A program made the translations under genes and the position numbers. The notes under the pieces were generated by a model. The model ran no database searches. It was not told the origin of the DNA and saw nothing but the letters and a program-made list of their open reading frames with translations. Below, piece after piece: positions 12,101-60,520 of a DNA stretch of 64,000 bases. The stretch spans positions 310,001-374,000 of the forward strand of contig OY783208.1 of NCBI GenBank assembly GCA_963678705.1, written 5' to 3'. The stretch comes from Panorpa germanica. Its lineage: Eukaryota; Arthropoda; Insecta; Mecoptera; Panorpidae. Numbering within the stretch: position 1 is the stretch's first letter; the number at the start of each line of letters is the position of its first letter.

Positions 12101-14433
12101 AGTTTTCGCTTTCCAGGTAATACATTTTAAATTAGATACCATACCACAAAAAGTTCTGCATTTAAATTATATAGGTAGATGTCTTTGATAAGGTTCTATT
12201 CTTAGCTAATTAAATAATAATTTTCTAGGTTCTTCCTGTAATCTTCTTCTTCAGCTTTATGATTAGTGTCTTGTACTATTGGGGGGCCATGCAGTGGATA
12301 GTTATGAAGCTAGGATGGATCCTACAATCTATTCTTGGTACAACTGTCTGCGAGAGTGTTAATTCTTCAGCAAATATCTTCTTGGGAATGGTAAAAATAA
12401 CCAATGGGCTTGTGTCCTCATTTTTTAGTGGTCGATTTTTCAATTGTTGATTGAACTTGATGTTAATAAATGTGTATTGGCGTGTCTATTTTATTAAATA
12501 TCTAAATGTTGACGGAGATATAGCAATTAAAAGTTTGAATTGTAGTTTTAGCGCTAGAAATGGTCGGCCATATTTGTATGACATGAAATGCATTTTAACG
12601 TCAATTATTTGTTGAGTAGGTCAGTGCTGTGGTAATGTTTTGTAGCTGTTGGTAGTCAAATAATCAAGTCAAGTCAAAGAATAATAAGTTTTCATTTTAT
12701 TTAACCCTGCTAAGGCAGACATAATATTGGAATTTTATTGTTTCTTGAAATAGCTGTAAATAATATTTGATATTTTGATATATAAATACATATAGCAGAG
12801 ATTTATGAGCTGTAAGGTTGACAGCGGTTGTGATGTCATATGCATTTGGAATGTGTACAACGTTGAATCCCTTTAATAATTAAAGAGACACAATGACTTT
12901 TTTAATTGTTAATATCTCTTAACATATAAGGAGTTCTAGTAACCCACTTTATCAATATGTGGTACACTTTTATAGAAATTTAGACATAGGACACAAGCCC
13001 ATTATATTTAGAAGCTAGAAGGATTCCTATTTACGAAAATAATGAATAAAACAATTAAATAGAAGTGCCCCTGATTAGTATGCAATGTATTTAACGCCAA
13101 AATGTTTTTCAGAGCGAATCGCCGTTATTAATTAAGCCGTATATTAAAGACTTAACAAAGTCTGAAATCCATGCAATTATGGCTTCCGGTTTTGCTACAG
13201 TATCCGGTAAAAATCTTATTTACTATAAGTAACACTTCAAGTGACGGTCACTATATTTTTGTTTCTTTGTTTACAGGTACAGTCCTGGCTGCCTATATTA
13301 GTTTCGGAGCTGAGGCGTCACATTTAATAACATCTAGTGTATTAGCTGCGCCAGGAGCACTATGCTTCAGCAAATTATTTTTCCCTGAAACACAGAAATC
13401 AAAAACTACTTCGGAAAATATTGAAATTGCAAAAGCGTAAGTGACAGTGGTTTAGATATTAGATAATATGTTGGTAATAAAGATATCTGCTTATTATTGT
13501 GTTGTGATTCTAGAACAGACAGTTCAGTTCTCGATGCTGCCACCAATGGCGCTCTAACTGCTATCAGTTTGGTGCTTGGAATCATTGCAAATATCGTGGC
13601 TTTTGTTTCCTTTGTAACTTTTCTTAATGGAATTGTTAGCTGGCTTGGAGTTCTTCTAGGGAATGATGACATCACATTTCAGAAAATCTTCAGTTATATC
13701 TTCACGCCGCTGAGTTGGATCATGGGTAATTGCCGCCAATATTCAAAAACTTCTTGTGGCTAGTTTCCAATAAGTATTAATTCTTTTCAGGTGTTGATTG
13801 GGTAGAATGTGAATACGTGGGAGAACTTATTGGGCTCAAGACAATTGTTAATGAGTTTGCAGCGTATAAAAGGTTAGGCGAGTTAAAAGAAGCTGGGTTC
13901 CTGTCGGTAAGTTAGAAATTATGGTTTGGATATTTGATAAAATTTTGTAATTTTAGAAGAGTATACATTTGTTGGTTTAAATTCCAAACGTAATGCAGGA
14001 ACTTCATGAAAATTTGATGTGTTATAAAAATCGTAGTCACAGACGTCATAAAGAAAAATGAACATTATTGATCACGTCGTTATCGAGATATTGCTATTTA
14101 AAATGTGAATTTTTCAGCCCAGGAGTGCAGCGATTGCAACATACGCAATTTGTGGGTTTGCCAACCCTAGTTCCTTAGGTATAATGATTGGGGCCCTCGG
14201 AGCTATGGCCCCCGCAAAGAAACCGGATATTACGTCGGTTGCAATCAGGGCCTTCATCACCGGAAGCGCTGTTTGCTTTCTGACGGCCAGTATAGCAGGT
14301 AGAGTACTAATTTAAAAAATTCTGCACAGTTCGGATTTCTTTTACCAATTATTTGCATTTTCCAGGGCTTCTTATGGATGGTGACAGTTTCCCCACACCG
14401 GAAGTGACTACCATAGCAACATTAATTTCTTAG
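6111..14433 (+). CDS. Concentrative nucleoside transporter (SLC28/CNT family)
   Basis: Multi-pass plasma-membrane cation-coupled nucleoside importer. Fourteen exons: 6111-6143, 8932-9003, 9862-10054, 10213-10387, 11315-11468, 11601-11692, 12011-12116, 12229-12390, 13113-13206, 13277-13436, 13514-13725, 13791-13906, 14118-14298, 14366-14433. Coding sum 1815 nt, 605 aa, with all phases consistent; usual family length is about 600-700. The cytosolic N-terminus is acidic/basic, then come hydrophobic helices from about residue 80. Family signatures include [93 protein letters not shown] and [20 protein letters not shown]. The position usually reading GQTEAP reads GMSESP, split across the exon 8/9 junction. 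Introns are loaded with mobile elements. Ion and substrate preference cannot be read from sequence alone. Confidence 0.95.
6480..6965 (-). repeat. Family C interspersed repeat, reversed copy
   Basis: Near-identical in reverse to 27030-27495, 49815-50222 and 60905-61310. It contains the segments cctgcagaaacttatcaact and gtgacgtcaccggagattcg. It lies in intron 1 of the nucleoside transporter. A ~70-codon frame (6731-6519, minus) beginning [14 protein letters not shown] stays open in three of the copies. Confidence 0.7.
7258..8105 (+). mobile_element. 3' end of a non-LTR retrotransposon (5'-truncated)
   Basis: Frame 7258-7575 encodes the C-terminus of a non-LTR retrotransposon ORF2. It includes a zinc-binding [18 protein letters not shown] segment (C-x2-C-xn-H-x4-C) typical of the region after reverse transcriptase/RNase H in R1/I/Jockey-like elements. 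Base use (purine-rich, GAGGAAAG) is clearly unlike the neighbourhood. A 3' UTR-like stretch follows, with a ~75-bp near-duplicate (about 7735-7805 and 7890-7960, sharing gagggtcaagagaagaagaa), ending near aataaaatatgtaaaataat. It sits in intron 1 of the transporter. Upstream reverse transcriptase sequence is absent. Confidence 0.7.
8519..8823. mobile_element. Family B palindromic MITE
   Basis: Terminal inverted repeats start TGTGCGAGAGAGAAAGGTAT and end with the complement. Inner arms continue as TTCTCTATGCGCATGCGTCG and its inverse, so about 80 bp at each end can fold back. Related copies lie at 40427-40756 and 42793-43183, with a fragment at 48373-48430. No coding capacity. In intron 1 of the transporter. 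Confidence 0.85.
9030..9841 (+). mobile_element. Family A element, long version, in transporter intron 2
   Basis: Contains the core (gacggagatatagcaattaa, agcgctagaaatggtcggcc), the GC-richer long module in this orientation (gtggtgggtggacgctgata) and the tail (aaccctgctaaggcagacat). It lacks both intact GGGCTTGTGTCC ends. It fills nearly all of intron 2 (9004-9861), stopping just before the exon 3 acceptor. Confidence 0.7.
10440..11115 (+). repeat. Family E interspersed repeat in transporter intron 4
   Basis: Begins near ctagagtttacccccgactt and contains atttatgcgttatttgacca and a C-rich segment cctctgggcccccgaatttc. The same sequence recurs at 25570-26190 (same strand) and 62490-63235 (reversed), with partial matches at 31175-31250 and 36010-36260. 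Non-coding. Confidence 0.7.
12403..13003 (+). mobile_element. Family A MITE, complete copy, in transporter intron 8
   Basis: Complete element of about 600 bp with inverted ends AATGGGCTTGTGTCCT and AGGACACAAGCCCATT. It starts only 12 nt after the exon 8 boundary. The rest of the intron (13004-13112) is ordinary AT-rich sequence, so the element landed immediately downstream of the splice donor. Confidence 0.85.
13955..14117 (+). repeat. Repeat segment forming the 3' half of transporter intron 12
   Basis: About 160 bp (from agtatacatttgttggttta to atttaaaatgtgaattt) closely matches 58250-58405, which is joined there to a family A copy. Here the repeat runs directly into the splice acceptor TTTTTCAG at 14110-14117. 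Confidence 0.65.
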
Positions 14434-14867
14434 TTAACAAATTACTTAAATATATTATATACTTAATATAAAGAATTATATAAAAATGTATTTATTTTTA
14501 TAATGCTGTGTTTTAATTATTAGTTGAACTATGGGTATGTACCGCGCCTGAATTATAGGCAACTTAACATACTTCTCATTTCTCTTCGTCCCATTGCCTA
14601 GCAACGAGTGTGTGTAACAAGTTTGTTATAGAAAGAGAAACTTCTAGAGCGATGAACATTTCTTTGCTAATCCTTATTTCTTTTTTGCTAATTTTTAATA
14701 GGGTAATATCCGCTACACGGTAAATTGATAAATTGTTTAATTAAAATTTTAAATATGTACAATTTTCTGGCTTTTTGTAAACATTTCTATATTTATAGGC
14801 TTTTTCAAAAAAAAAAGTTTATTTGTTTTTCACGGTTTGATGCAACTGCTTTATTACACTTTCTATG
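14434..14867. other. 3' flank of the nucleoside transporter
   Basis: AT-rich. AATATA/ATAAAA-like motifs follow the stop within about 60 bp and could serve in 3' end formation. No gene seen. The foldback element begins at its right edge. Confidence 0.35.
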
Positions 14868-14991
14868 CGACCTTTTTTAAATTCATGGACATTTTTTTCT
14901 AGAGAAAATTTAGGATCTTTGAAAATTTTGGATGCAGTTATATCCACTAAACTTTATGAAGACGAACTGCGTTAAAAAATTATATATAGTA

Positions 14992-15690
14992 TAGTAGGAC
15001 AATAAAAGAGTACATTCATTTATATAGACAGCAGTCAGTTGACTTTAGTAGTGTGTGGGTGATGGGTTGCATCGAATCAGGCGTTACAATAATAAAAATA
15101 TAAAATACGTCACTCGAAGTGTTACTAAATAAAAACGCTGTACATGCGTTAATTATTAATCTTATTAATTAATATCTTAAGACAATGTTGAAAATAATTA
15201 ATGTTTAGTTAGCAAGATAAAGAAATCATAGAAACAAATGAAAAACATTGCGCAACAAATTAGGTTTATGGACATCACTGTGCCTGCATGTTATGCAACT
15301 AAAGTAACACCACAATTAGAACACGCTGTCACGTCCAAGTAATATACAAGATTTAACTTCTATTATTTTAGCTGGTACATTGAACCTGCTGTGTTTATAA
15401 CAAGTTTATGATTCAAATTTCCCGCGGTATACCTATAGACAATTTCATTGGTTGGTTTTTAAATGAATATGTTAATGGTGTTTATACTATTACCATACAT
15501 TAATTAATTTGCATAAATGTGTCATTTTTAGCCATCTGGGTATTTGGAAAGATAACGCAAATAAAACAGAGAAATAATATGACAAGAAATTAAATTAAAT
15601 TAGATTAGGAAAGCAATAGTAAGTTTATTATTTTATAAAACACATTTCCTCCTTGTTTCTTGAATATGTAGCTATTAAAATCAGAATTTA
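14992..15690. repeat. Left unique flank of the foldback element
   Basis: Single-copy sequence whose reverse complement is at about 23305-24010 with only scattered differences (for example ctggtacattgaacctgctg here and cagcaggttcaatgtaccag there). It separates the outer monomer from the tandem array. Confidence 0.85.
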
Positions 15691-18600
15691 AAGAAAAATT
15701 ATTCATTTCTTAATATTTTTTGATGCAGTTATATTCGTTTATATTTAAGAAGACGAACTGCATTAAATTTTTTTAAATATCTTAAGTATTTTGGATTTTA
15801 TAGGGGGTTCTAAAAATTCATGGACTTTTTTTTTAAAAAGAAAAATTATTGATTTCCTAATATTTTTTGATGCAGTTATATTCATTTATATTTAAGAAGA
15901 CGAACTGCATTAGAATTTTTTTAATATCTTAAATATTTTGGATTTTATAGGGGGTTCTAAAAATTCATGGACTTTTTTTTTAAAAAGAAAAATTATTGAT
16001 TTCTTAATATTTTTTGATGCAGTTATATTCATTTATATTTAAGAAGACGAACTGCATTAGAATTTTTTAAACATCTTAAATATTTTGGATTTTATAGGGA
16101 GTTCTAAAAATTCATGGACTTTTTTTTTAAAAAGAAAAATTATTGATTTCTTAATATATTTTGATGCAGTTATATTCATTTATATTTAAGAAGACGAACT
16201 GCATTAGAATTTTTTAAACATCTTAAATATTTTGGATTTTATAGGGAGTTCTAAAAATTCATGGACTTTTTTTTTAAAAAGAAAAATTATTGATTTCTTA
16301 ATATTTTTTGATGCAGTTATATTCATTTATATTTAAGAAGACGAACTGCATTAGAATTTTTTTAATATCTTAAATATTTTGGATTTTATAGGGGGTTCTA
16401 AAAATTCATGGACTTTTTTTTTAAAAAGAAAAATTATTGATTTCTTAATATTTTTTGATGCAGTTATATTCATTTATATTTAAGAAGACGAACTGCATTA
16501 GAATTTTTTTAATATCTTAAATATTTTGGATTTTATAGGGGGTTCTAAAAATTCATGGACTTTTTTTTTAAAAAGAAAAATTATTGATTTCTTAATATTT
16601 TTTGATGCAGTTATATTCATTTATATTTAAGAAGACGAACTGCATTAGAATTTTTTAAATATCTTAAATATTTTGGATTTTATAGGGGGTTCTAAAAATT
16701 CATGGACTTTTTTTTTAAAAAGAAGAATTATTGATTTCTTAATATATTTTGATGCAGTTATATTCATTTATATTTAAGAAGACGAACTGCATTAGAATTT
16801 TTGAAATATCTTAAATATTTTGGATTTTATAGGGGGTTCTAAAAATTCATGGACTTTTTTTTTAAAAAGAAAAATTATTGATTTCTTAATATATTTTGAT
16901 GCAGTTATATTCATTTATATTTAAGAAGACGAACTGCATTAAAATTTTTTAAATATCTTAAATATTTTGGATTTTATAGGGAGTTCTAAAAATTCATGGA
17001 CTTTTTTTTTAAAAAGAAAAATTATTGATTTCCTAATATTTTTTGATGCAGTTATATTCATTTATATTTAAGAAGACGAACTGCATTAGAATTTTTTAAA
17101 TATCTTAAATATTTTAGATTTTATAGGGGGTTCTAAAAATTCATGGCCTTTTTTTTTAAAAAGAAAAATTATTGATTTCTTAATATTTTTTGATGCAGTT
17201 ATATTCATTTATATTTAAGAAGACGAACTGCATTAGAATTTTTTTAATATCTTATATATTTTGGATTTTATAGGGGGTCTAAAAATTCATGGACTTTTTT
17301 TTTAAAAAGAAAAATTATTGATTTCTTAATATTTTTTGATGCAGTTATATTCATTTATATTTAAGAAGACGAACTGCATTAGAATTTTTTTAATATCTTA
17401 AATATTTTGGATTTTATAGGGAGTTCTAAAAATTCATGGACTTTTTTTTTAAAAAGAAAAATTATTGATTTCTTAATATTTTTTGATGCAGTTATATTCA
17501 TTTATATTTAAGAAGACGAACTGCATTAGAATTTTTTAAATATCTTAAATATTTTGGATTTTATAGGGAGTTCTAAAAATTCATGGACTTTTTTTTTAAA
17601 AAGAAAAATTATTGATTTCTTAATATTTTTTGATGCAGTTATATTCATTTATATTTAAGAAGACGAACTGCATTGGAATTTTTTAAAATATCTTAAATAT
17701 TTTGGATTTTATATGGGGTTCTAAAAATTCATGGACTTTTCTTTAAAAAAGAAAAATTATTGATTTCTTAATATTTTTTGAAGCAGTTATATTCATTTAT
17801 ATTTAAGAAGACGAACTGCATTAAAATTTTTTAAATATCTTAAATATTTTGGATTTTATAAGGGGTTCTAAAAATTCATGGACTTTTTTTTTAAAAAGAA
17901 AAATTATTGATTTCCTAATATTTTTTGAAGCAGTTTAATTCATTTATATTTAAGAAGACGAACTGCATTAAAATTCTTTAAATATCTTAAATATTTTGGA
18001 TTTTATAGGGGGTTCTAAAAATTCATGGACTTTTTTTTTAAAAAGAAAAATTATTGATTTCTTAATATTTTTTGATGCAGTTATATTCATTTATATTTAA
18101 GAAGACGAACTGCATTAGAATTTTTTTAATATCTTATATATTTTGGATTTTATAGGGGGTTCTAAAAGTTCATGGACTTTTTTTTTAAAAAGAAAAATTA
18201 CTGATTTCTTAATATTTTCTGATGCAGTTATATTCATTTATATTTAAGAAGACGAACTGCATTAGAATTTTTTAAATATCTTAAATATTTTGGATTTTAT
18301 AGGGGGTTCTAAAAATTCATGGACTTTTTTTTTAAAAAGAAAAATTATTGATTTCTTAATATTTTTTGATGCAGTTATATTCATTTATATTTAAGAAGAC
18401 GAACTGCATTAGAATTTTTTTAATATTTTATATATTTTGGATTTTATAGGGGGTTCTAAAAATTCATGGACTTTTTTTTTAAAAAGAAAAATTATTGATT
18501 TCTTAATATTTTTTGATGCAGTTATATTCATTTATATTTAAGAAGACGAAGTGCATTAGAATTTTTTTAATATCTTAAATATTTTGGATTTTATAGGGGG

Positions 18601-19190
18601 TTCTAAAAATTCATGGACTTTTTTTTTAAAAAGAAAAATTATTGATTTCTTAATATTTTTTGATGCAGTTATATCCATTTATATTTAAAAAGACGAACTG
18701 CATTAAATTTTTTAAAATAATTTAGATATTTTGGATTTTATAAGGGTTTCTAAAAATTCATGGACTTTTTTTTTAAAAAGGAAAATTATTGATTTCTTAA
18801 TATTTTTTGATGCAGTTATATTCATTTATATTTAAGAAGACGAAGTGCATTAGAATTTTTTTAATATCTTAAATATTTTGGATTTTATAGGGGGTTCTAA
18901 AAATTCATGGACTTTTTTTTTAAAAAGAAAAATTATTGATTTCTTAATATTTTTTGATGCAGTTATATCCATTTATATTTAAAAAGACGAACTGCATTAA
19001 ATTTTTTAAAATAATTTAGATATTTTGGATTTTATAAGGGTTTCTAAAAATTCATGGACTTTTTTTTTAAAAAGGAAAATTATTGATTTCTTAAAATTTT
19101 TTGATGCAGTTATATTCATTTATATTTAAGAAGACGAACTGCTTTAAAAAATTTGAAAAATCTCAAGTAGTTTGGATTTTCTAGGGGTTG
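15691..19190 (+). repeat. Forward array: 24 monomers of 147 bp
   Basis: The marker GATGCAGTTATATTCATT recurs at 15722, 15869, 16016, 16163, 16310, 16457, 16604 and onward to 19103, a distance of exactly 23 x 147 bp. Each monomer has an A/T-tract module (gactttttttttaaaaagaa), a TATAGGGGGTTCTAAAAATT module, and a short dyad TGCAGTT ... AACTGCA enclosing about 25 bp. Divergence is low, with a few shared variants; the last four full monomers form a 294-bp two-monomer higher-order repeat. Confidence 0.95.
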
Positions 19191-19214
19191 CTAAAAATTA
19201 ATGGACACAATAAG

Positions 19215-22200
19215 GATCCCCTTATAAAATCCAAAATACTTAAGATTTTTCAAAAATTTTAATGCAGTTCGTCTTCTTAAATATAAACGAATATAACTGC
19301 ATCAAAAAATATTAAGAAATCAATAATTTTTCTTTTTAAAAAAAAAGTCCATGAATTTTTAGAACCCCCTATAAAATCCAAAATATATAAGATATTAAAA
19401 AAATTCTAATGCAGTTCGTCTACTTAAATATAAATGAATATAACTGCATCAAAAAATATTAAGAAATCAATAATTTTTCTTTTTAAAAAAAAAGTCCATG
19501 AATTTTTAGAACCCCCTATAAAATCCAAAATATATAAGATATTAAAAAAATTCTAATGCAGTTCGTCTACTTAAATATAAATGAATATAACTGCATCAAA
19601 AAATATTAAGAAATCAATAATTTTTCTTTTTAAAAAAAAAGTCCATGAATTTTTAGAACCCCCTATAAAATCCAAAATATTTAAGATATTAAAAAAATTC
19701 TAATGCAGTTCGTCTTCTTAAATATAAATGAATATAACTGCATCAAAAAATATTAAGAAATCAATAATTTTTCTTTTTAAAAAAAAAGTCCATGAATTTT
19801 TAGAACCCCCTATAAAATCCAAAATATATAAGATATTAAAAAAATTCTAATGCAGTTCGTCTACTTAAATATAAATGAATATAACTGCATCAAAAAATAT
19901 TAAGAAATCAATAATTTTTCTTTTTAAAAAAAAAGTCCATGAATTTTTAGAACCCCCTATAAAATCCAAAATATTTAAGATATTAAAAAAATTCTAATGC
20001 AGTTCGTCTTCTTAAATATAAATGAATATAACTGCATCAAAAAATATTAAGAAATCAATAATTTTTCTTTTTAAAAAAAAAGTCCATGAATTTTTAGAAC
20101 CCCCTATAAAATCCAAAATATTTAAGATATTAAAAAAATTCTAATGCAGTTCGTCTTCTTAAATATAAATGAATATAACTGCATCAAAAAATATTAAGAA
20201 ATCAATAATTTTTCTTTTTAAAAAAAAAGTCCATGAATTTTTAGAACCCCCTATAAAATCCAAAATATTTAAGATATTAAAAAAATTCTAATGCAGTTCG
20301 TCTTCTTAAATATAAATGAATATAACTGCATCAAAAAATATTAAGAAATCAATAATTTTTCTTTTTAAAAAAAAAGTCCATGAATTTTTAGAACCCCCTA
20401 TAAAATCCAAAATATTTAAGATATTAAAAAAATTCTAATGCAGTTCGTCTTCTTAAATATAAATGAATATAACTGCATCAAAAAATATTAAGAAATCAAT
20501 AATTTTTCTTTTTAAAAAAAAAGTCCATGAATTTTTAGAACCCCCTATAAAATCCAAAATATTTAAGATATTAAAAAAATTCTAATGCAGTTCGTCTTCT
20601 TAAATATAAATGAATATAACTGCATCAAAAAATATTAAGAAATCAATAATTTTTCTTTTTAAAAAAAAAGTCCATGAATTTTTAGAACCCCCTATAAAAT
20701 CCAAAATATTTAAGATATTAAAAAAATTCTAATGCAGTTCGTCTTCTTAAATATAAATGAATATAACTGCATCAAAAAATATTAAGAAATCAATAATTTT
20801 TCTTTTTAAAAAAAAAGTCCATGAATTTTTAGAACCCCCTATAAAATCCAAAATATTTAAGATATTAAAAAAATTCTAATGCAGTTCGTCTTCTTAAAAA
20901 TAAATGAATATAACTGCATCAAAAAATATTAAGAAATCAATAATTTTTCTTTTTAAAAAAAAAGTCCATGAATTTTTAGAACCCCCTATAAAATCCAAAA
21001 TATTTAAGATATTAAAAAAATTCTAATGCAGTTCGTCTTCTTAAATATAAATGAATATAACTGCATCAAAAAATATTAAGAAATCAATAATTTTTCTTTT
21101 TAAAAAAAAAGTCCATGAATTTTTAGAACCCCCTATAAAATCCAAAATATATAAGATATTAAAAAAATTCTAATGCAGTTCGTCTACTTAAATATAAATG
21201 AATATAACTGCATCAAAAAATATTAAGAAATCAATAATTTTTCTTTTTAAAAAAAAAGTCCATGAATTTTTAGAACCCCCTATAAAATCCAAAATATTTA
21301 AGATATTAAAAAAATTCTAATGCAGTTCGTCTTCTTAAATATAAATGAATATAACTGCATCAAAAAATATTAAGAAATCAATAATTTTTCTTTTTAAAAA
21401 AAAAGTCCATGAATTTTTAGAACCCCCTATAAAATCCAAAATATTTAAGATATTAAAAAAATTCTAATGCAGTTCGTCTTTTTAAATATAAATGAATATA
21501 ACTGCATCAAAAAATATTAAGAAATCAATAATTTTTCTTTTTAAAAAAAAAGTCCATGAATTTTTAGAACCCCCTATAAAATCCAAAATATATAAGATAT
21601 TAAAAAAATTCTAATGCAGTTCGTCTACTTAAATATAAATGAATATAACTGCATCAAAAAATATTAAGAAATCAATAATTTTTCTTTTTAAAAAAAAAGT
21701 CCATGAATTTTTAGAACCCCCTATAAAATCCAAAATATTTAAGATATTAAAAAAATTCTAATGCAGTTCGTCTTCTTAAATATAAATGAATATAACTGCA
21801 TCAAAAAATATTAAGAAATCAATAATTTTTCTTTTAAAAAAAAAAGTCCATGAATTTTTAGAACCCCCTATAAAATCCAAAATATTTAAGATATTAAAAA
21901 ATTTTTAATGCAGTTCGTCTTCTTAAATATAAATGGATATAACTGCATCAAAAAATATTAAGAAATCAATAATTTTCCTTTTTGAAAAAAAGTCCATGAA
22001 TTTTTAGAACCCCCTATAAAATCCAAAATATTTAAGATATTAAAACTTTTTTAATGCAGTTCGTCTTCTTAAATATAAATAAATATAACTGCATCAAAAA
22101 ATTTTAAGAAATCAATAATTTTCCTTTTTAAAAGAAAAGTCCATGAATTTTTAGAACCCCCTATAAAATCCAAAATATATAAGATATTAAAAAAATTCTA

Positions 22201-23300
22201 ATGCAGTTCGTCTTCCTAAATATAAATAAATATAACTGCATCAAAAAATTTTAAGAAATCAATAATTTTCCTTTTTAAAAGAAAAGTCCATGAATTTTTA
22301 GAACCCCCTATAAAATCCAAAATATATAAGATATTAAAAAAATTCTAATGCAGTTCGTCTTCCTAAATATAAATGAATATAACTGCATCAAAAAATATTA
22401 AGAAATCAATAATTTTTCTTTTTTAAAAAAAAGTCCATGAATTTTTAGAACCCCCCATAAAATCCAAAATATTTAAGTTTTTAAAAAAATTCTAATGCAG
22501 TTCGTCTTCTTAAATATAAATGAATATAACTGCATCAAAAAATATTAAGAAATCAATAATTTTTCTTTTTAAAAAAAAAGTCCATGAATTTTTAGAACCC
22601 CCTATAAAATCCAAAATATTTAAGTTTTTAAAAAAATTCTAATGCAGTTCGTCTTCTTAAGTATAAATGAATATAACTGCATCAAAAAATATTAATAAAT
22701 CAATAATTTTTCTTTTTAAAAAAAAAGTCCATGAATTCTTAGAACCCCCTATAAAATCCAAAATATTTAAGTTTTTAAAAAAATTCTAATGCAGTTCGTC
22801 TTCTTAAATATAAATGAATATAACTGCATCAAAAAATATTAAGAAATCAATAATTTTTCTTTTTAAAAAAAAAGTCCATGAATTTTTAGAACCCCCTATA
22901 AAATCCAAAATATTTAAGTTTTTAAAAAAATTCTAATGCAGTTCGTCTTCTTAAGTATAAATGAATATAACTGCATCAAAAAATATTAATAAATCAATAA
23001 TTTTTCTTTTTAAAAAAAAAGTCCATGAATTTTTAGAACCCCCTATAAAATCCAAAATATTTAAGTTTTTAAAAAAATTCTAATGCAGTTCGTCTTCTTA
23101 AATATAAATGAATATAACTGCATCAAAAAATATTAAGAAATCAATAATTTTTCTTTTTAAAAGAAAAGTCTATGAATTTTTAGAACCCCCTATAAAATCC
23201 AAAATACTTAAGATATTTAAAAAAATTTAATGCAGTTCGTCTTGTTAAATATAAATGAATATAACTGCATCAAAAAATATTAAGAAATCAATAATTTTTC
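19215..23300 (-). repeat. Reversed array: 28 monomers of 147 bp
   Basis: The reversed marker AACTGCATCAAAAAAT recurs from about 19296 to 23265, exactly 27 x 147 bp. Many successive monomers are identical, so this array is more homogeneous than the forward one. Variant monomers (AATATATAAG paired with GTCTACTTAA) recur at intervals, and near 22480-23100 two variants alternate (TTAAGTATAAATG with ATTAATAAATC) as a 294-bp higher-order unit. Confidence 0.95.
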
Positions 23301-24010
23301 TTAAAATTCTGATTTTAATAGCTACATATTCAAGAAACATGGAGGAAATGTGTTTTATAAAATAATAAACTTGCTATTGCTTTCCTAATTTAATTTAATT
23401 TAATTTCTTGTCATATTATTTCTCTGTTTTATTTGCGTTATCTTTCCAAATACCCAGATGGCTGAAAATGACGCATTTATGCAAATTAATTAATATATGG
23501 TAATAATATAAACACCATTAACATATTCAATTAAAAACCAACCAATGAAATTGTCTCTAGGTATACCGCGGGAAATTTGAATCATAAACTTGTTATAAAC
23601 ACAGCAGGTTCAATGTACCAGCTAAAATAATAGAAGTTAAATCTTGTATATTACTTGGACGTGACAGCGTGTTCTATTTGTGGTGTAAGTTTAGTTGCAT
23701 AACCTGCAGGCGCAGTGATGTCCATAAACTTAATTTGTTGCGCAAAGTTTTTCATTTGTTTCTATGATTTCTTTATCTTGCTAACTAAACATTAATTATT
23801 TTCAACATTGTCTTAAGATATTAATTAATAAGATTAATAATTAACGCAAGTACAATGTTTTTATTTAGTAACACTTCGAGTGCCGTGTTTTATATTTTTA
23901 TTATTGTAACGCCTGATTCAATGCAACCCATCACACACTACTAAAGTCAACTGACTGCTTTCTATATAAATGAATGTACTATTTTATTGTACTACTACCT
24001 ATATATAATA
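23301..24010. repeat. Right unique flank of the foldback element (inverted)
   Basis: Reverse complement of 14992-15690 with scattered substitutions and small indels. Together with the single outer monomer at 24020-24161 it mirrors the left end. Confidence 0.85.
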
Positions 24011-24161
24011 TACTATATTTAAGTTTTTAACGCAGTTCGTCTTCTTAAATATAATTGGATATAACTGCATTAAAAAATATTAGGAAATCAATAATTTTTC
24101 TTTATTAAAAAAAAGTCCATGAATTTTTGGAACCCCCTATAAAATCCAAAATAGTTGAGAT

Positions 24162-25569: not shown

Positions 25570-26190
25570 TTAACTTTTGTGTCTTAATTTATTAATTTAA
25601 TTTCAAATTTTAATTCCATTTTTAAATTGAAATATTTAACTCGTTTTATATAAATTTTACATATAAAAACAAATAAATTTTCATATAAATTGACCAAAAA
25701 AATATATTTTTTTTTCAAAATAAATAATATTTTCAATTTATGCGTTAGTTGACAAATTTTTTTTCAAAAATTAAATTTTAAATAAAAAATATCAACTTTC
25801 TAGCACAATTTTTACCCTCTGTAAAAACCGCCCCCATGCCCCCAATTTTTTTTAAATATTTTATTCAATTATTACACAATTCAAAATTTGAGCTTTTCCA
25901 AAGTTTCCTACCGGGCCCCCTAATTTTCTCAGAGCCCCTTTTATTAAATTTTGAATTTCTATGTTTTCAAATATGTTCGCATTTAAAAGCGTAATACACA
26001 TGCAAAATTGCACCGTCTTTCAGTTTTTTCAAAATTACGGGTTTCCAGGAAATTCGGGGAAAAATCCGGGGACGCCAAAAGTCTTAGAATCTTTTTCTCT
26101 ACGAAATAGGAACTTTTCAAAAACTTCCACGGAGCTGTTTTCGAGCTACCATACAAAATTCAGTACCAAACATATAAGAATAGAAACATA
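25570..26190 (+). repeat. Family E interspersed repeat
   Basis: Diverged copy of 10440-11115: it shares ttttcaatttatgcgttagt, the segment around gggccccctaattttctcag, and the end around ggggacgccaaaagtcttag. Non-coding. Confidence 0.65.
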
Positions 26191-26989
26191 CAGTTGGAAC
26201 ATTATAATATAGAAGTCAAATGGACCCAAATATGGTAAATACGACAAAAAATGTTAATGATTGATAACAAACGTTCTGATACGTTCACACTGAGCATTGT
26301 AGGTTATGTTTTAATATTATAGTCGTCAACGCATGTGTGTACGGTACCCCGAATATTCGCTCTATTTATTAAATTTTATTTATTTTCTTCTGTGCTAATC
26401 CATACTTCGCCTGGACTATTAAGTTAGTGCTTCAGTTTCCTCCCCCCACCACTTTAACGATAGTCTGAACAATTTGCTTGTGTCGTAGTACTTGAAAAAA
26501 AATGCAAAACTCTAGACGCTGTCTATAGCGCTATGGGAACCTTAGCGAACACGAACTCCACGAACCGAAACTAACCGAACAGTGGCGAAGTCACTCGCAT
26601 CAAAAAACATATACAGTGAATGAAAGAGATAGCAATATTATATATATAATTATAAGTAAACTTGTTAAAGAGGGATAGGTATATACTTGTTTCTTTGTCA
26701 GTGGATTGCACTCGCAGTAAAGTATGAGAGATAGTATGTATAAAGTATGATGTTGGAAAGAGAAGGAAGGGGTATTATTTATGAATAATTCAACAGCGCC
26801 TGTGGTATATGTGACACATCCAACACTTCCTGTAATATATTAAATTAAAGCGCAATATTTCTGTGTTTATGAACAGTTTCCGCAATCCATGGGGTCATTT
26901 TTCAGCTTCGGTTTGAAAATTATGAAAAAGTACGACGTTTAAATAACAATAGCATCAAATTCTGAAGTCGTAGTTTCTTATTTTCGCAG
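26191..26989. other. Intergenic stretch, nothing recognised
   Basis: Mixed AT-rich sequence. Small GC-richer patches at 26440-26600 give no open frame or known motif. Confidence 0.35.
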
Positions 26990-29474: not shown

Positions 29475-29915
29475 AGGTTGGCAAGAAAGTAATTTCGGTC
29501 AATTTTCTGTTTGACACAAAAGAAGTTTCGGTTAACCGAAAAACCAAATGTTTTTCGAAACCGAAAAAAAAAATAGATAATTAAGCGAAATTACTTTTGT
29601 GCCAACATAGAAATTTAACCGAAATTACTTTTGTGCCAACATAGAAAATTGACCGAAATTACTTTTGTGCCAAATATAGATAATTAACCGAAATTACTTT
29701 TGTGCCAACAGAGATAATTAACCGAAATTACTTTTGTGCCAACACAGATAATTAACCGAAATTACTTTTGTGCCAAACAGAAAATTGCCCGAAATTACTT
29801 TTGTGCCAACATAGATAATTAACCGAAATTACTTTTGTGCCAAACAGAAAATTGACCGAAATTACTTTTGTGCCAAACAGAAAATTGACCGAAACTACTT
29901 TTGTGCCAACATATA
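29475..29915. repeat. Tandem array of mariner-like terminal repeats
   Basis: The left end reads TTAGGTTGGCAAGAAAGTAA then TTTCGGT, close to the terminal repeat of cecropia-type mariner elements such as Hsmar1. A second unit in the same orientation follows (ACACAAAAGAAGTTTCGGTT). Then come ten units in the opposite orientation: ACTTTTGTGCCAA starts at 29593, 29627, 29661, 29697, 29730, 29764, 29797, 29831, 29864 and 29897 (spacing 33-36 bp), each preceded by CCGAAATT or similar. No transposase remains. Confidence 0.75.
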
Positions 29916-30189
29916 AAGAAATATTTTCTTATACCGTTATCAAAATGATTGATTTTTTTATCACTGCATTCCATGATTTAAATTTCTTTTATTTTTTTTA
30001 TAATGATGAAATCAACTAATAACAATTCAATAATATTTTAAAATAGTTTTGTTTATTGATTATTGGAAATGCTGGCGTAGGTTGAAAATGTAACGAATGG
30101 AAATAACTAAAATAGCAAAGTCAGTTAACACGTGTACCAACTTAATATGCGCAGAAAATTAAATTGTACTACAATGTAGTTAGAGTTAA
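29916..30189. other. AT-rich intergenic stretch, nothing recognised
   Basis: No open frame of interest and no known repeat. Confidence 0.3.
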
Positions 30190-30617: not shown

Positions 30618-31170
30618 AGTGGGCTTGTGTCCTCATTTTTTAGTGGTCATTTGAAAAATCAATTGTTGATTGAACTTGATGTTAATAAATGTGTATTGGC
30701 GTGTCTATTTTATTAAATATCTAAATATTGACGAAGATATAGCAATTAAAAGTTTGAATTGTAGTTTTAGCGCTAGAAATGTCGGCCATATTTGTATGAC
30801 GTGAAATGTATTTTAACGTCAGTTACTTGTTGTGCTGTGGTAATGTTTTGTAGCTGTTGGTAGTCAAATAATCAAGTCAAGTCAAAGAATAATAAGTTTT
30901 CATTTTATTTAACCCTGCTAAGGCAGACATAATATTGAAACTTTATTGTTCCTTGCAATAGCTGTAAATAATATTTGATATTTTGATATATAAATACATA
31001 TAGCAGAGATTTATGAGCTGTAAGGTTGTGATGTCACATGCAATTGGAATGTGTATAACGTTGAATCCCTTTAATAATTAAAGAGACAAAATGACTAGTT
31101 TAATTGTTAATATCTCCTAACATATAAGGAGTTCTAGTAACCAACTTTATCAATATGTAGTACACTTTTA
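30618..31170 (+). mobile_element. Family A MITE, right end replaced
   Basis: Left end GTGGGCTTGTGTCCTCATTT at about 30619 and all internal modules are present. The copy breaks off at ttttatagaaatt (about 31170), where a family E fragment (cgccaaatttcaactttcta) begins instead of the TAAGACATAGGACACAAGCC end. Confidence 0.75.
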
Positions 31171-31716
31171 TAGAAATTCACGCGCCAAATTTCAACTTTC
31201 TATCTCTTTCGCGAAAATCAGTTCCAAATATATAAGAAATATATAATAGAAGCTTTATTTTACAAATTAGTGATTTCTCAATTTGTCTCTGACAAGCGCA
31301 AGTCACTCTAAAGACAGTTTGCAATTAATTTTATATAAAAAACAGGACAATAACAAATTGAGTAAATAAATTAACCTCAAAAACATGAGAAATGTACTTA
31401 ATGTAATATTAATATATCTAAAGTTATTCTTGTGTATATATATATGTATACACATACTAGCGTAATGTATATGTGTGTGTGCAAGATCAGAATGGTATAT
31501 AAATAGTTTTTTAAAGAGTAAAATCTTATTATTATTTTGAAGACAACGCGTTGAAGAAATTAACATCGTTTTTCCTTCGGATAAGAAATAATTTGTTGTA
31601 TTTAAGAAATATTAAATAAAAGTGTTATTTTTATATAAAATAATATAATAATTATATATTTATATATATAAATAATAAATATAGTGTTACAAATATATAA
31701 AAGTGAATTTTTAAAA
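31171..31716. other. Upstream region of the TGF-beta propeptide-like gene
   Basis: Contains a ~70-bp family E fragment at its left edge, then AT-rich sequence with TATATA runs (31435-31450, 31655-31690) that precede the start codon. The leader and promoter presumably lie here, but no exact start can be set. Confidence 0.35.
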
Positions 31717-52818: not shown

Positions 52819-55800
52819 ATGATGGTGCAGTTAAAAATTAATTTGGTTCGTATCTTGGTCTTGTTTTTGGTGGTGAATCAGACATATTCTCATGAGAATA
52901 ACAACAGGTAAGAATAGGTTAGTGTCCTATGTCTTAATGGGCTTGTGTCCTCATTTTTTAGTGGTCAATTTTTCAATTGTTGATTGAACTTGATGTTAAT
53001 AAATGTGTATTGGCGTGTCTATTTTATTAAATATCTAAATGTTGACGGAGATATAGCAATTAAAAATTTGAATTGTAGTTTTAGCGCTAGAAATGGTCAC
53101 CCATATTTGTATGACGTTAAGTCAGTTATTTGTTGAGTAGGTCAGTGCAGTAGTAATGTTTTGTAGCTGTTGGTAGTCGAAATAATCAAGTCAAGTCAAA
53201 GAATAATAAGTTTTTATTTTATTTAACCCTGCTAAGGCAGACATAATACTGAAATTTTATTATTCCTTGAAATAGCTGTTAATAATATTTGATATTTTGA
53301 TGTATAAATACATATAGCAGAGATTTATGAGCTGTAAGGTTGGCAGCGGTTGTGATGTCACATGCATTTGGAATGTGTACAACGTTGAATCCCTTTAATA
53401 ATTAAAGAGACAAAATGCCTTTTTTAATTGTTAATATCTCCTAACATATAAGGAGTTCTAGTAACCCACTTTATCAATATGTAGTACACTTTTATAGAAA
53501 TTAAGACATAGGACACAAGCCCAATCTCTGCTATATGGATTTATATATCAAAATATCAAATATTATTTACAGCTATTTCAAGGAACAATAAAATTCCAAT
53601 ATTATGTCTGCCGTAACAGAGTTAAATAAAATGAAAACTTATTATTCTTTGCGTACTAGATACGCAGGACTACCAACAGCTACAAAACATGTTACGTCAT
53701 ACAAATATGGTCGACATTTCTAGCGCTAAAACTATAATTCAAATTTTTAATTGCTATATCTCCGTCAACATTTAGATATTTAATAAAATAGACACGCCAA
53801 TACACATTTATTGACATCAATTTCAATTAACAATTGAAATGAGAACACATAAAACTGCTTCTAACTTATAAACCATTAGTTTTTTGAAAGAATGTCACTC
53901 TTAATAAATTTTGCGTAGTTTAATCAGCTTTCATTTGCCGTAACAGTAATTAAAATATATTAAGCGATTACTTAGATATCGCATTTTTAATGGTGGCAGC
54001 CATTTTGAATCTTGAATAAAACCGAGAAGGGTGCGAAATTTTAATTGACTCCATATGTTAAAAATCATCCACTTATTAAACCCTTTCGCTGTAAGAATGA
54101 ATTAATTTGCTTTTTTGTTTTCTCTTTGCTTTTTTGACAGTTACAAAATAAAAGTTGACTTCATGGACATAGCGCCTGTTTTTTCCGATGCTGCAACCTG
54201 CCAAACGCTTGTGGTTAACACTGCTAACATTGACACTTTGAAAATATTTCCGTCGCTTAATTTTACGGTAAGAAAACCAGAACCATCTGATAGTTTCTTT
54301 TTTAAATTGCTGTATTAACTACACCGTTGTTTATTTTTTAATGGTTCTTGTTCTATTCAAGAGAGTATTCCATAATAAATATGTGTGTGACGTCACAGAT
54401 ATGTGACGAAATTGAAATTGAAATTTTTAATAGCTATATCTTTGTCATCTTTGAGATATTTATAAAAATAAAAACGTCAATATACTTATATTAACCTATA
54501 TTTTAATTAAAGTTAAAAAAAAACTTAAAGCTGAAATTTTTCTTTAGTATACTGGAAAAATTGATGATATATGGGATGAAGAAACAGAAAAAGATTTTAG
54601 AACTGAAATGAGACATCCGCGTAAACAACCACTGCAGGTAAAGTAAACAAACTAACTTTTCTAAGTAAACTATTAGTTTTATGAAAAAAATGTTTATATG
54701 AAAGTTGTAGAACGTTAAAAGACCTTTAAAATGAAGTTTAGATACCGTAACGGGTTTAAGAGTTATAGGCAAAATTGTAACCGTATGCACTCGAAGTGTA
54801 GTGGTCAACTTTAAAGCGGTGTAGCTCAATATCTATCAGACATAGAAAAAAATGTTGTATATAAAAATTGTAGCAAATTGAGTCCTCTATTGACTATTTT
54901 TATCGTAAGACGCACTGGTAAAGAGATATCACTAAAATACTGCTTATTTGTCATCTCTTTTATACAACATAAATTTCGTTAATTCTTCTTTTATGGTTAA
55001 TTTCAGGTGATGATCATTCCTCATTCGCACAACGATGCAGGGTGGCTTAAAAGTTTTAATGATTACTACATCACTAGTACCAGAGACATTTTAAATTCAT
55101 TGGTTACAAATATGGTAAAATATGAAAATTTAACATTCGTTTGGAATGATATGGCCTTCCTTAGCGAGTGGTGGAAAACAGCACCCGTATCTATGAAGCA
55201 GGTAAAGTTAGAACAAAAAGTTACTTATAAAAGTTGTAAATAATATTATTAGCCACAAAAAAGCTCTTTACAAATTTTTTGTAGGAGCTATAGTTTCTAA
55301 GATATACAGAAGAAACTGGTTACATGTTATTTTCAATATGGCGTCTTCTCAATTTCAGAATATAAGAGATTTGGTTAAATCCGGACGTCTTGAGTTGACC
55401 ACAGGAGGTTGGGTCATGCCAGATGAAGCTACCACGCATCTCTTCGGGTTGCTGGACCAATTAATCGAAGGCCACGAATGGCTGCATCTAAATCTAAACG
55501 CTACTCCAATAACCGCTTGGTCGATCGATGCGTTTGGTCATGGCAGCACCTTGCCTTACCTCCTCTCAATATCCGGACTAAATTACACATTTATCCAACG
55601 AATATCCTACACGTGGAAACGTTGGTTCGTCAAAGTGAAGGTCGAAGATTTCCAGTGGATTCCTTCCTGGAAGATGGAAGCCTTGGATTGTCCAAACCCT
55701 CATTGCCAGAAAACTACCAGAGGATCAATCCTTACGCATCACAGACCTTTCAACTTGTACACGTTCCATAGTTCCGGGCCAAATAAAGATAAATGTATAA

Positions 55801-59392: not shown

Positions 59393-59785
59393 GTAAGAAT
59401 TGTTTTCAATTATATATTTATTAATTAATACTTAATATAGTGATTGATATGAATGTAATACATCTTTACTTGCTTCTAAATAATAATAACGTCTTAAGAA
59501 TTCGACTACGTTTGTGAAATATGAATAATTTTCTTTTGGTTCATGACTTTGCTTTAAGTAAACCTGTATTTAAATTTGTTGCTATTTTTTATTAACAATT
59601 GTTTTTTATGATTTATTAATTAGTTAAAGATAATATTTTTAATTCAGTTAAAGTTGGGTTTTTGTTTTTATGTCTTATAATTAACAAAATAAATAATTAA
59701 CCAGCAGAGAAACATACCATTTGCATATAGGGATCTATACACCAAAGATTCATTTAAATATCTTTGTGAGAATCTTAAATCTAAT

Positions 59786-60378
59786 AATAGGCTTGTGTCC
59801 TATGTCTTAATTTCTATAAAAGTGTACTACATATTGATAAAGTTGGTTACTAGAACTCCTCATATGTTAGGAGATATTAACAATTAAAAAAGTCATTTTG
59901 TCTCTTTAATTATTAAAGGGATTCAACGCTGTACACATTCCAAATACATGTGACATCACACAACCTTACAGCTCATAAATCTCTGCTATATGTATTTATA
60001 TATCGAAATATCAAATATTATTTACAGCTGTTTCAAGGAACAATCAAATTTCAATATTATGTCTGCCGTAACAGGGTTAAATAAAATAAAAACTTATTAT
60101 TCTTTGACTTGACTTGATTATTTGACTACCAACAGCTACAAAACATTACCACAGCACTGACCTACTCAACAAATACCTGACGTTAAAATGCATTTCACGT
60201 CATACAAATACGGTCGACCATTTCTAGCGCTAAATCTACAATTCAAATTTTTAATTGCTATATCTCCGTCAACATTTAGATATTTAATAAAATAGACACG
60301 CCAATACACATTTATTAACATCAATTTCAATCAACAATTGAAAAATCGATCACTAAAAAATGAGGACACAAGCCCATT
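59786..60378 (-). mobile_element. Family A MITE, complete reversed copy
   Basis: Ends AATAGGCTTGTGTCCTATGT and TGAGGACACAAGCCCATT. All modules are present, about 593 bp. It lies beside the 140-bp repeat shared with 28126-28265. Confidence 0.9.
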
Positions 60379-60520
60379 GCTGTTTTTAATAACAATTAGT
60401 AATAGAAATTGTTTTTACTTCTTTATTTTTGACAAACTGACATTGAACTTCTTTTAAAAATAAATCCTACTGCGTTTTGACAGATTGTCACATTTTGGAG
60501 GTTATAATATAATATAGAAA
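60379..60520. repeat. 140-bp repeat also found at 28126-28265
   Basis: Near-identical to that segment; see the entry there. Confidence 0.65.

Follow-up and report, generated by a model that had tools for sequence, protein, structure and literature searches.

The 64,000-nucleotide stretch of Panorpa germanica chromosome 5 analyzed here (hereafter, the window) contains a long palindrome that probably belongs to a non-autonomous foldback family, derived from Helitrons and dispersed through the genome, and that was probably transposed via its 3′ terminus. The body of this family consists of two opposed 147-bp arrays that meet at a family-specific asymmetric joint, and the end that defines it is of the Helitron 3′ type, with a hairpin and a CTAG next to an outside A. 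The terminus lies at both ends in some copies and at one end only in most copies with a detected terminus, the other end of the one-ended copies being cut at varying positions inside the array. The family, which comprises roughly a hundred mobile copies, is best read as lacking a recognized 5′ end, which an inverted 3′ end replaces in some copies.

In the window copy, Tandem Repeats Finder identified a left array of period 147 with 23.9 monomer copies (15690–19206, + strand) and an opposed right array with 27.8 copies (19218–23302, − strand), whose consensus is the reverse complement of the first. A BLAST search of the window against itself aligned 14879–19206 with 24126–19788 in inverted orientation over 4347 bases at 95.4% identity (E = 0), which is far above chance. 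This bears out the two opposed arrays that had been proposed from the letters of this DNA without database searches (the sequence-only reading); they have a period of 147 bp and form an inverted repeat of 4.3 kb, and the characteristic anatomy of foldback elements, long inverted arms that contain tandem repeats, is present. Between the arrays lies the family-wide joint ATGGACACAATAAGGATCCCCTTATAAAATCC (19201–19232, + strand; C5:329201-329232), which has one mismatch to the family pattern and makes the center of the palindrome asymmetric, with no perfect mirror. From the outside inward, the left arm is composed of a terminus that resembles a Helitron 3′ end, with its 3′ side outward (14578–14633, −; aligned with 17 family termini), an AT-rich terminal (subterminal) domain common to sister copies (14634–14867, −), a terminal monomer variant that has diverged from the 147-bp unit (14868–14991, +; about 74–79% identical to the left-array monomers of the window), and the left copy of a ~700-bp insert (14992–15689, +). 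On the right, the array is followed by the second copy of the insert (23303–24013, −; 95.8% identical to the left copy) and by a cut-off outer piece of ordinary monomer (24014–24161, −; monomer positions 91–145 and 2–101), which matches the ordinary monomer at 94.5% over its outer 55 bases and at 86.4% over the next hundred. The earlier arm layout was therefore right about the opposed arrays and the 700-bp copies and wrong about the start of the left arm, which had been placed at 14868 and really lies at ~14578; an outer boundary at ~14582 is common to the homologous arms of many loci. Likewise, the “outer monomer” that it had assigned to both arms is the diverged terminal variant on the left and a cut-off ordinary monomer on the right, and the two are 81% identical, against 95.8% for the insert. 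A search of the window for the terminal domain to the right of 24161 returned array cross-matches only; we therefore regard the right arm of the window copy as cut short and its right terminus as absent. No open frame of at least 110 aa was found inside the element, and no hits were returned when the window was scanned with Rfam and for tRNAs.

The ~700-bp stretch had been described as a unique flank, with the single monomer outside it as the diagnostic feature of an undescribed family. This arrangement is not supported by the 20 fetched sister loci, among which the stretch is present in one only (L024 at C5:753 kb, on the same chromosome as the window), while the terminal monomer directly adjoins the array in L009, L027, and several sampled termini. 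Since it is missing from 19 of the 20 sister loci, we rejected the stretch as a candidate element end; it is an insert in the window copy. The proposal of a dispersed foldback family as such holds up: sister copies lie on many chromosomes, so the flank is not the once-only occurrence that the sequence-only reading had named as evidence against itself. What that reading overlooked is the element end, which looks like a Helitron 3′ end and unlike that of a classical terminal-inverted-repeat transposon.

The hallmarks of Helitrons are an A just outside the element and a hairpin-CTAG end. Read from the outside, the family terminus has the form A|CTAG-CTCTTCG followed by the hairpin CCCATTGCC..GGCAATGGG; reverse-complemented, this has the form of a Helitron 3′ end. 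Alignment of 17 termini in 15 of 21 loci gave A|CTAGCTCTTCGCCCCATTGCC(T/A)(G/A)GCAATGGG, with one additional, partial L014 match and four chance matches (E of 0.16 to 8.2) left out of the count. The hairpin is 19 nt long and reaches z = −3.66 when folded as single-stranded DNA, in agreement with the 16–20-nt palindrome ~11 nt from the 3′ end of canonical Helitrons, and the CTAG present in most termini read agrees with their 3′ CTRR. The expected A (T on the other strand) stands just outside 29 of the 33 termini read, pooled from three samples (14/17, 7/8, and 8/8), against a chance expectation of about one third in this very AT-rich genome; in three of the four exceptions, the CTAG itself is mutated. 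Genome-wide, the terminus pattern gave 164 matches (78 + 86) at three or fewer mismatches and none for the reversed control, with zero mismatches in 26 among the 100 matches listed; a second search counted 159, and the unique places among the matches listed number 133. The left terminus of the window copy is degraded, with ATTT at the CTAG position (14578–14581), CTCTTCGT next to it, and the hairpin arms within 14590–14608, and this degenerate form is absent among the terminus-pattern matches listed.

The opposed-array joint was matched at 75 places on 20 of the 21 chromosomes, and its control at none. Long palindromes are hard to assemble, and one arm of the window copy might in principle be an assembly artifact; however, the recurrence of this joint at 75 places in the assembly argues against this, as do the arms themselves, which differ by about 4–5% and in array copy number, and we find such an origin scarcely credible. 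With the 133 unique termini among the matches listed, at least 31 of the 75 joints have within 9 kb a terminus that faces them, and wrong-facing termini number zero, compared with a mean of 0.24 and a maximum of 2 in 200 random shifts. The facing terminus is on the left only at 12 of these 31 joints, on the right only at 16, and on both sides at 3; that termini occur to the left as well as to the right of a joint that is itself asymmetric suggests an ancestor with twin ends. Among the matches listed, 44 of the 75 joints have no terminus, and only 34 of the 133 termini have a joint of this first type within 9 kb, counts that weigh against the proposed reading. Neighboring terminus pairs less than 15 kb apart are convergent in six cases, tandem in one, and divergent in none (among the matches listed); the six convergent pairs mark twin-ended copies, three of which coincide with listed joints, a small number beside the 28 one-sided joints. 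A younger subfamily of 16 dispersed copies carries a second joint of its own, identical in 13 (control, 0), and has a terminus in all 16, on one side in 15 and on the other side in 1, a distribution that would not on its own call for twin ends. Three kinds of palindromic joint were seen in all; when three joint hairpins were compared with shuffles, one was no better and another only moderately better.

We consider it unlikely that the family consists of one-ended or once-canonical Helitrons carrying an array, in which ectopic recombination and gene conversion between arrays, or circular DNA, produced and spread the opposed arrays with no transposition of the palindrome. Such an origin would accord with arrays that vary in length and are partly homogenized within loci, with the local inverted duplication seen as inverted flank copies in L012 and L050/51, and with the position of window-like arrays by chromosome ends, 17 of 24 hand-picked places lying within 5% of an end. 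It is harder to square with one joint at 75 places where the outer flanks compared (46) have only short repeat matches of 17–88 bp in common, with termini that face the joint wherever they were found within range, and with second-joint copies that are near-identical and dispersed. Two points nevertheless speak for this alternative and against our main reading: a joint could be carried from array to array by ectopic gene conversion, with no need for transposition, and the right cut end of the window copy (~24161), read inward, is A|TCTCAAC, the A|TC with which a Helitron 5′ end would read. When 21 ends without terminus were read, they lay at varied monomer positions, with A|TC in the window’s only, and no common 5′ TC end was found among them. 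Mean left–right monomer identity in the window copy is 0.961, compared with 0.910 to other loci. Arm-by-rank similarity, considered as proof of recent palindrome formation, gave no clear rank signal and was set aside.

The far ends of two second-joint copies that were read stop at different monomer positions, and the far flank of L027 is single-copy sequence next to the array, with a 420-bp repeat also present there. One constant and one variable end, as found in most fetched copies, are also what would be displayed by a retroposed family of LINE or SINE type, constant at its 3′ end and truncated to varying degrees at its 5′ end. We regard retroposition as very improbable, given that neither a poly-A or microsatellite tail outside the termini read nor target duplications were seen, that the outside A and the hairpin-CTAG are Helitron hallmarks, and that twin-ended copies do not fit it.

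The insertion sites bear on a further alternative, in which a cut-and-paste transposase would move a classical foldback transposon with terminal inverted repeats. In FB elements, long inverted arms carry a terminal domain and then tandem repeats, and the same arrangement makes Galileo comparable to the Panorpa family as far as the available descriptions of it go. The accessible parts of the report on Tetris describe a matching anatomy, with opposed long inverted arms, a terminal domain followed by tandem repeats, and a satellite source, together with 8–10-bp target duplications that led its authors to suggest Mutator (PMC4079207). The six convergent terminus pairs would then be the inverted ends of single copies. 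Unlike Tetris, the Panorpa family has Helitron-type ends, whose hairpin-CTAG|T form is shared with autonomous Helitrons of the same genome, and inserts without target duplication: in 19 copies tested (13 one-ended and 6 twin-ended), no Tetris-like duplication of 8–10 bp was found, and abutting direct repeats measured 0–3 bp in 18 and 4 bp (ATAT) in L012, where the flanks are palindromic. On these grounds a classical foldback transposon seems decidedly unlikely. Longer direct repeats occurred in palindromic flanks (L012 and L050/51) or did not abut (L016 and L054/55), the 7-bp repeat of L016 lying 3 and 8 bases off the ends and being equaled in 5 of 300 shuffles. Insertion takes the form A|CTAG..CTAG|T, with A..T on both sides in three of four twin-ended copies (the only ones in which it can be checked), and not the T-rich or TT target of Helentrons. 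Inverted flank was found in two twin-ended copies, over 26 bp and about 205 bp. Comparison of five joined flank pairs with local sequences revealed no empty sites, the join in L013 being three bases off.

Autonomous Helitrons are abundant in the genome (Helitron_like_N; 150 matches scored of 893 candidates), with open frames of up to 1489 aa. The three autonomous 3′ ends recognized, which we take as two families (L049 and L068 + L069), have a GC-rich palindrome-like stretch and GCTAG|T, while no element end was recognized in L066 and L067. A hairpin identical to that of the foldback family was seen in none of these three ends, and since no autonomous element with the same hairpin was found, mobilization in trans is something that we infer. 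In the Helitron-derived family proposed here, the Rep/helicase of the autonomous elements would act in trans on the terminus. CTAG and the AT target are self-complementary, and the missing 5′ (TC) start could for this reason be replaced by a 3′ end in inverted form. Copying would start exactly at one terminus and run inward, yielding a twin-ended copy if it gets as far as the second terminus and otherwise a one-ended copy. The palindrome probably arose by fold-back of a single-stranded intermediate that then served as its own template; later, array lengths may have changed and the two arms been made partly alike, which might also be why both arms of the window copy carry the 700-bp insert. It is tempting to speculate that the family has dispensed with a 5′ start altogether, the inverted 3′ terminator hairpin being both origin and terminator, with copying from either end and repeated snap-back joints, although we lean slightly against this.

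In Helitron models, the 5′ start is required and the 3′ hairpin is the stop. For Helraiser, a reconstructed element tested experimentally, the available text describes an essential 5′ end and a dispensable 3′ end (PMC4778049), the opposite of what the Panorpa family retains. It also describes precise cleavage of both strands by the enzyme at the 3′ end (PMC4778049), which would in principle allow an inverted 3′ end to act as a start. As far as the accessible sections go, canonical Helitrons (Helitron1 and Helraiser/Helibat) share with the Panorpa family a 3′ hairpin about a dozen bases from the CTAG end, the outside A, and no visible target duplication (PMC4778049, PMC4067079); the Panorpa family differs in that no common 5′ TC end was found, some copies have an inverted 3′ terminus at both ends, and two opposed arrays meet at a conserved joint. 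HINE/DINE-1 and the oyster Cg_HINE are likewise rolling-circle-type, non-autonomous, and dispersed with satellite-like repeats, being described in the parts available as non-autonomous Helentrons with central satellite repeats, which in the related Pearl elements are about 160 bp long (PMC4067079, PMC7492417). According to the same sections, they have subterminal inverted repeats, T-rich targets, and arrays flanked by left and right modules, whereas the Panorpa family has CTAG|T ends, opposed arrays, and twin 3′ ends in some copies. Composite or self-inserted Helitrons in Fusarium and adjacent ones in maize show multiple termini and opposite-orientation composites, but the accessible accounts describe extra 5′ termini, reversed reading frames, and neighboring different elements; a propagated palindrome with two 3′ ends, as in the Panorpa family, lies outside them (PMC5148889, PMC2267711). 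Open-access literature other than preprints was searched for scorpionfly transposons, for opposed arrays, and for Helitrons whose ends are inverted or twinned; within the available text (including that of PMC5714489) no match emerged, and twin Helitron-like 3′ ends on opposed arrays were not found described.

A natural family showing only 3′ ends, mirror-oriented in some copies, makes the idea of a start from the 3′ end directly testable, links rolling-circle transposons to foldback elements, and offers a route by which satellite arrays might spread and become palindromic. If the reading is correct, Helitrons would be capable of one-ended transposition and of giving birth to palindromes, scattering mirror-image satellite arrays; effects on hairpin RNA, genome instability, and chromosome-end sequence are conceivable. 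Bacterial IS91 elements undergo one-ended transposition, with one constant and one variable end, and serve here as an analogy only. Partial copies of the 700-bp insert occur at five further places (C5:23.1–24.2 Mb), free of the array in the 3.5 kb examined around them.

The window occupies C5:310001-374000, on chromosome 5 of assembly GCA_963678705.1. The two opposed 147-bp arrays that the sequence-only reading had described in it are present (15690-19206 and 19218-23302), their arms sharing 95.4% identity over 4347 bases. The left arm had been taken to begin at 14868; the homology between the arms runs further outward, to ~14582. Querying the Panorpa germanica genome with this arm returned at least 485 matches, many of which are opposed array pairs. 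As a sister sample, we fetched 20 regions around listed matches (21 loci with the window), and all 20 contain opposed arrays, with ~0.8 (L024) to 38 monomers per arm; in L009, L019, and L026, the fetched region cuts an arm or stops close to it. The 46 outer flanks of at least 100 bp that were compared have only short repeat matches (17-88 bp) in common; the exceptions are the inverted flanks of two twin-ended copies, copies with an outer terminus at each end. Left and right arms resemble each other more than they resemble arms of other loci in 17 of the 20 loci compared (marginally in 3 of the 17), the exceptions being L009, L021, and L027.

The outer ends of the copies carry a constant terminus. 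We identified 17 termini in 15 of the 21 loci, reading A|CTAGCTCTTCGCCCCATTGCC(T/A)(G/A)GCAATGGGTGTG with variations. In reverse complement, they present a 19-nt hairpin and then GCGAAGAG-CTAG|T, which is the canonical Helitron 3' end by the definition in PMC4067079. The window copy's own terminus is degraded. Only inner parts of the terminal domain were found in L019 (a region cut short), L024, and L028, and no part of it in L010, L022, or L026, the last region again being cut short. Of eight further termini, six match the pattern exactly and two belong to the GTGTA type; every one has an A outside and the 147-bp array inside (two monomers only in L060); over three sets combined, the expected flanking base is present at 29 of 33 termini. 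A short TATTATAATGTYCCAGGTGTATGTTTATATT-like sequence, perhaps a favoured target repeat, is common to L053, L057, L018, L024, L028, and window positions 26149-26220, lying just outside several termini or near elements. In L010 (C10:17568500-17578400), both arm ends lie at the same monomer position beside the same short sequence, ACTTGGTGTTYTTAATTAT, without a Helitron terminus, possibly representing another kind of end.

Two genome searches counted 164 and 159 termini, from which 133 unique places were listed. Among the listed termini, six neighbouring pairs are convergent, with 4.9 to 11.0 kb between the two termini; neighbours less than 15 kb apart include no divergent and one tandem pair. 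The flanks were read in four of these twin-ended pairs: each has A|CTAG on the left, and three have CTAG|T on the right, where the remaining pair has CTAG|CTAG-T. Inverted flanks outside the ends of two twin-ended copies (26 bp in one, ~205 bp in L012) point to local inverted duplication there. Abutting direct repeats measure 0-2 bp in five of the six twin-ended copies and 4 bp in the sixth, L012, where the flanks are palindromic; in 13 one-ended copies, they measure 0-3 bp. Among these 13, only L016 has a repeat near the ends (within 12 bases of each) that is longer than expected by chance, at 7 bp (equalled by 5 of 300 shuffles), and it does not abut the ends.

As judged by eye, 19 of the 21 loci, counting the window, have their arrays connected at the centre by ..ATGGACACGATAAGGAACCCCTTATAAAATCC.. 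or a diverged version of this joint; L011 and L027 have different joints. The pattern of this first joint has 75 genome matches (38+37) on 20 of the 21 chromosomes, against none for the reversed control. These matches include 17 of the 21 loci, L016 and L026 being too diverged. A facing terminus lies within 9 kb of 31 of the 75 joints, on the left only in 12, on the right only in 16, and on both sides in 3, with no wrong-facing case (random shifts: mean 0.24, maximum 2 in 200). Had the ancestor possessed one terminus, it would be expected always on the same side of this asymmetric joint; the simplest account of termini on either side is an ancestor with both, each copy having lost one. Of the 133 listed places, none provides a facing terminus within 9 kb of 44 of the 75 joints, and 99 have no listed first-type joint within 9 kb, 16 of these being copies with a second joint.

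This second joint, that of L027, has 16 genome matches (13 identical; control 0), each with a GTGTA-ending terminus 1.7-7.2 kb away, 15 on one side and 1 on the other. The hairpin end of these copies is thus constant, whereas the far end, in the two copies where it was read, is ragged and falls within the array: L027 stops at monomer position 66, where its flank is single-copy beside the array, and a copy at C20:3.754 Mb stops at ~123. The latter, of this younger subfamily (C20:3751314 to ~3753790), adjoins exons that we take to resemble argininosuccinate lyase and is probably inside or beside a gene. Across 21 ends without a terminus, monomer positions vary, and 11 fall in 112-147, the A/T-run part.

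The data establish a Helitron-like 3' terminus that is constant, arrays in opposed orientation, joints that are heritable, copies with either twin ends or one end, and no abutting target duplication. We consider the copies best explained, with fair confidence, as a dispersed, non-autonomous, Helitron-derived foldback family, twin- or one-ended. Of the 21 ends without a terminus, one, the cut end of the window copy, has the sequence A|TCTC; taken alone, it could pass as a Helitron 5' end. This A|TC makes the foldback family slightly less likely and slightly favors another account, in which ordinary one-ended (or once canonical) array-bearing Helitrons had their opposed arrays spread by ectopic recombination, gene conversion, or circular DNA instead of transposition; we nevertheless regard that account as unlikely.

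The foldback family resembles canonical Helitrons at its terminus but has no shared 5' TC end, and it resembles the Tetris foldback element, as portrayed in PMC4079207, in build but has no target duplication. Since one tested definition of each kind fails, we class it as a Helitron-derived variant rather than a canonical member of either. In the open-access journal papers searched, we came across no account of an element that combines opposed arrays and a pair of Helitron 3' ends. Its palindromes may have been born by snap-back copying, after which the arrays would change in monomer number. Of three joints folded, that of L011 contains a hairpin far better than shuffles (z -7.55), the first joint a moderate one (z -1.90; equalled by 10 of 200 shuffles), and the second joint one that does not exceed shuffles (z 0.33). 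In L011, the arrays meet at ~3783 at an inverted repeat within the monomer itself (TTTTTTGATGCAGTT..AACTGCATCAAAAAA), with a strong hairpin, and this joint was probably made independently. Copying might start from an inverted 3' end; according to PMC4778049, the Helraiser enzyme cleaves both 3'-end strands precisely, which supports such a start, whereas deletion of the Helraiser 5' end abolishes transposition, which speaks against it.

The genome holds 150 scored Helitron_like_N matches of 893 candidates, with open frames of up to 1489 aa. Three autonomous Helitrons were followed to the 3' end (L049, its helicase tail recognized by eye only, L068, and L069); each has a GC-rich palindrome-like stretch and GCTAG|T, and the family hairpin sequence is in none of the three. 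L068 and L069 diverge soon after CTAG, and the imperfect L049 palindrome has no folding advantage over shuffles, 47 of 200 doing as well. Judging from their sequences, Helitrons appear to have been recently active in this species, because Rep copies (L029-L048) are very abundant and similar (mostly 97-98% identical within two groups compared), many with long open frames.

The 700-bp "unique flank" of the sequence-only reading (14992-15689; inverted at 23303-24013) does occur in both window arms (95.8% identity) and has copies elsewhere, but is not part of the family, as only L024 of the 20 sister loci carries it, in one arm. Partial copies lie at five places in C5:23.1-24.2 Mb, two of them identical over 3471 bases; the 3.5 kb examined around each contains no array. 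From this distribution, missing from every fetched array locus other than the window and L024 and standing elsewhere without an array, we read it as an insert. Because the two window arms differ immediately beyond it, its occurrence at one and the same site in both suggests that it was copied from one arm to the other.

Of 24 hand-picked array places most like the window's, 17 are within 5% of a chromosome end, compared with a mild 23 of 100 listed termini near chromosome ends. This bias may reflect homogenization among chromosome ends or a sampling effect, the query itself being a chromosome-end copy. The window also contains a separate dispersed ~600-bp repeat (12394-13005, 30620-31178, 52936-53523, 59784-60387, and others; several copies 90-94% identical) and ten copies of a 34-bp tandem repeat (29573-29917). 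An abundant 420-bp repeat recurs with 93-94% identity, for example at C11:3270510 and C5:24638211; setting aside the query's own place, 39 places are listed, of which 14 lie on chromosome 5.
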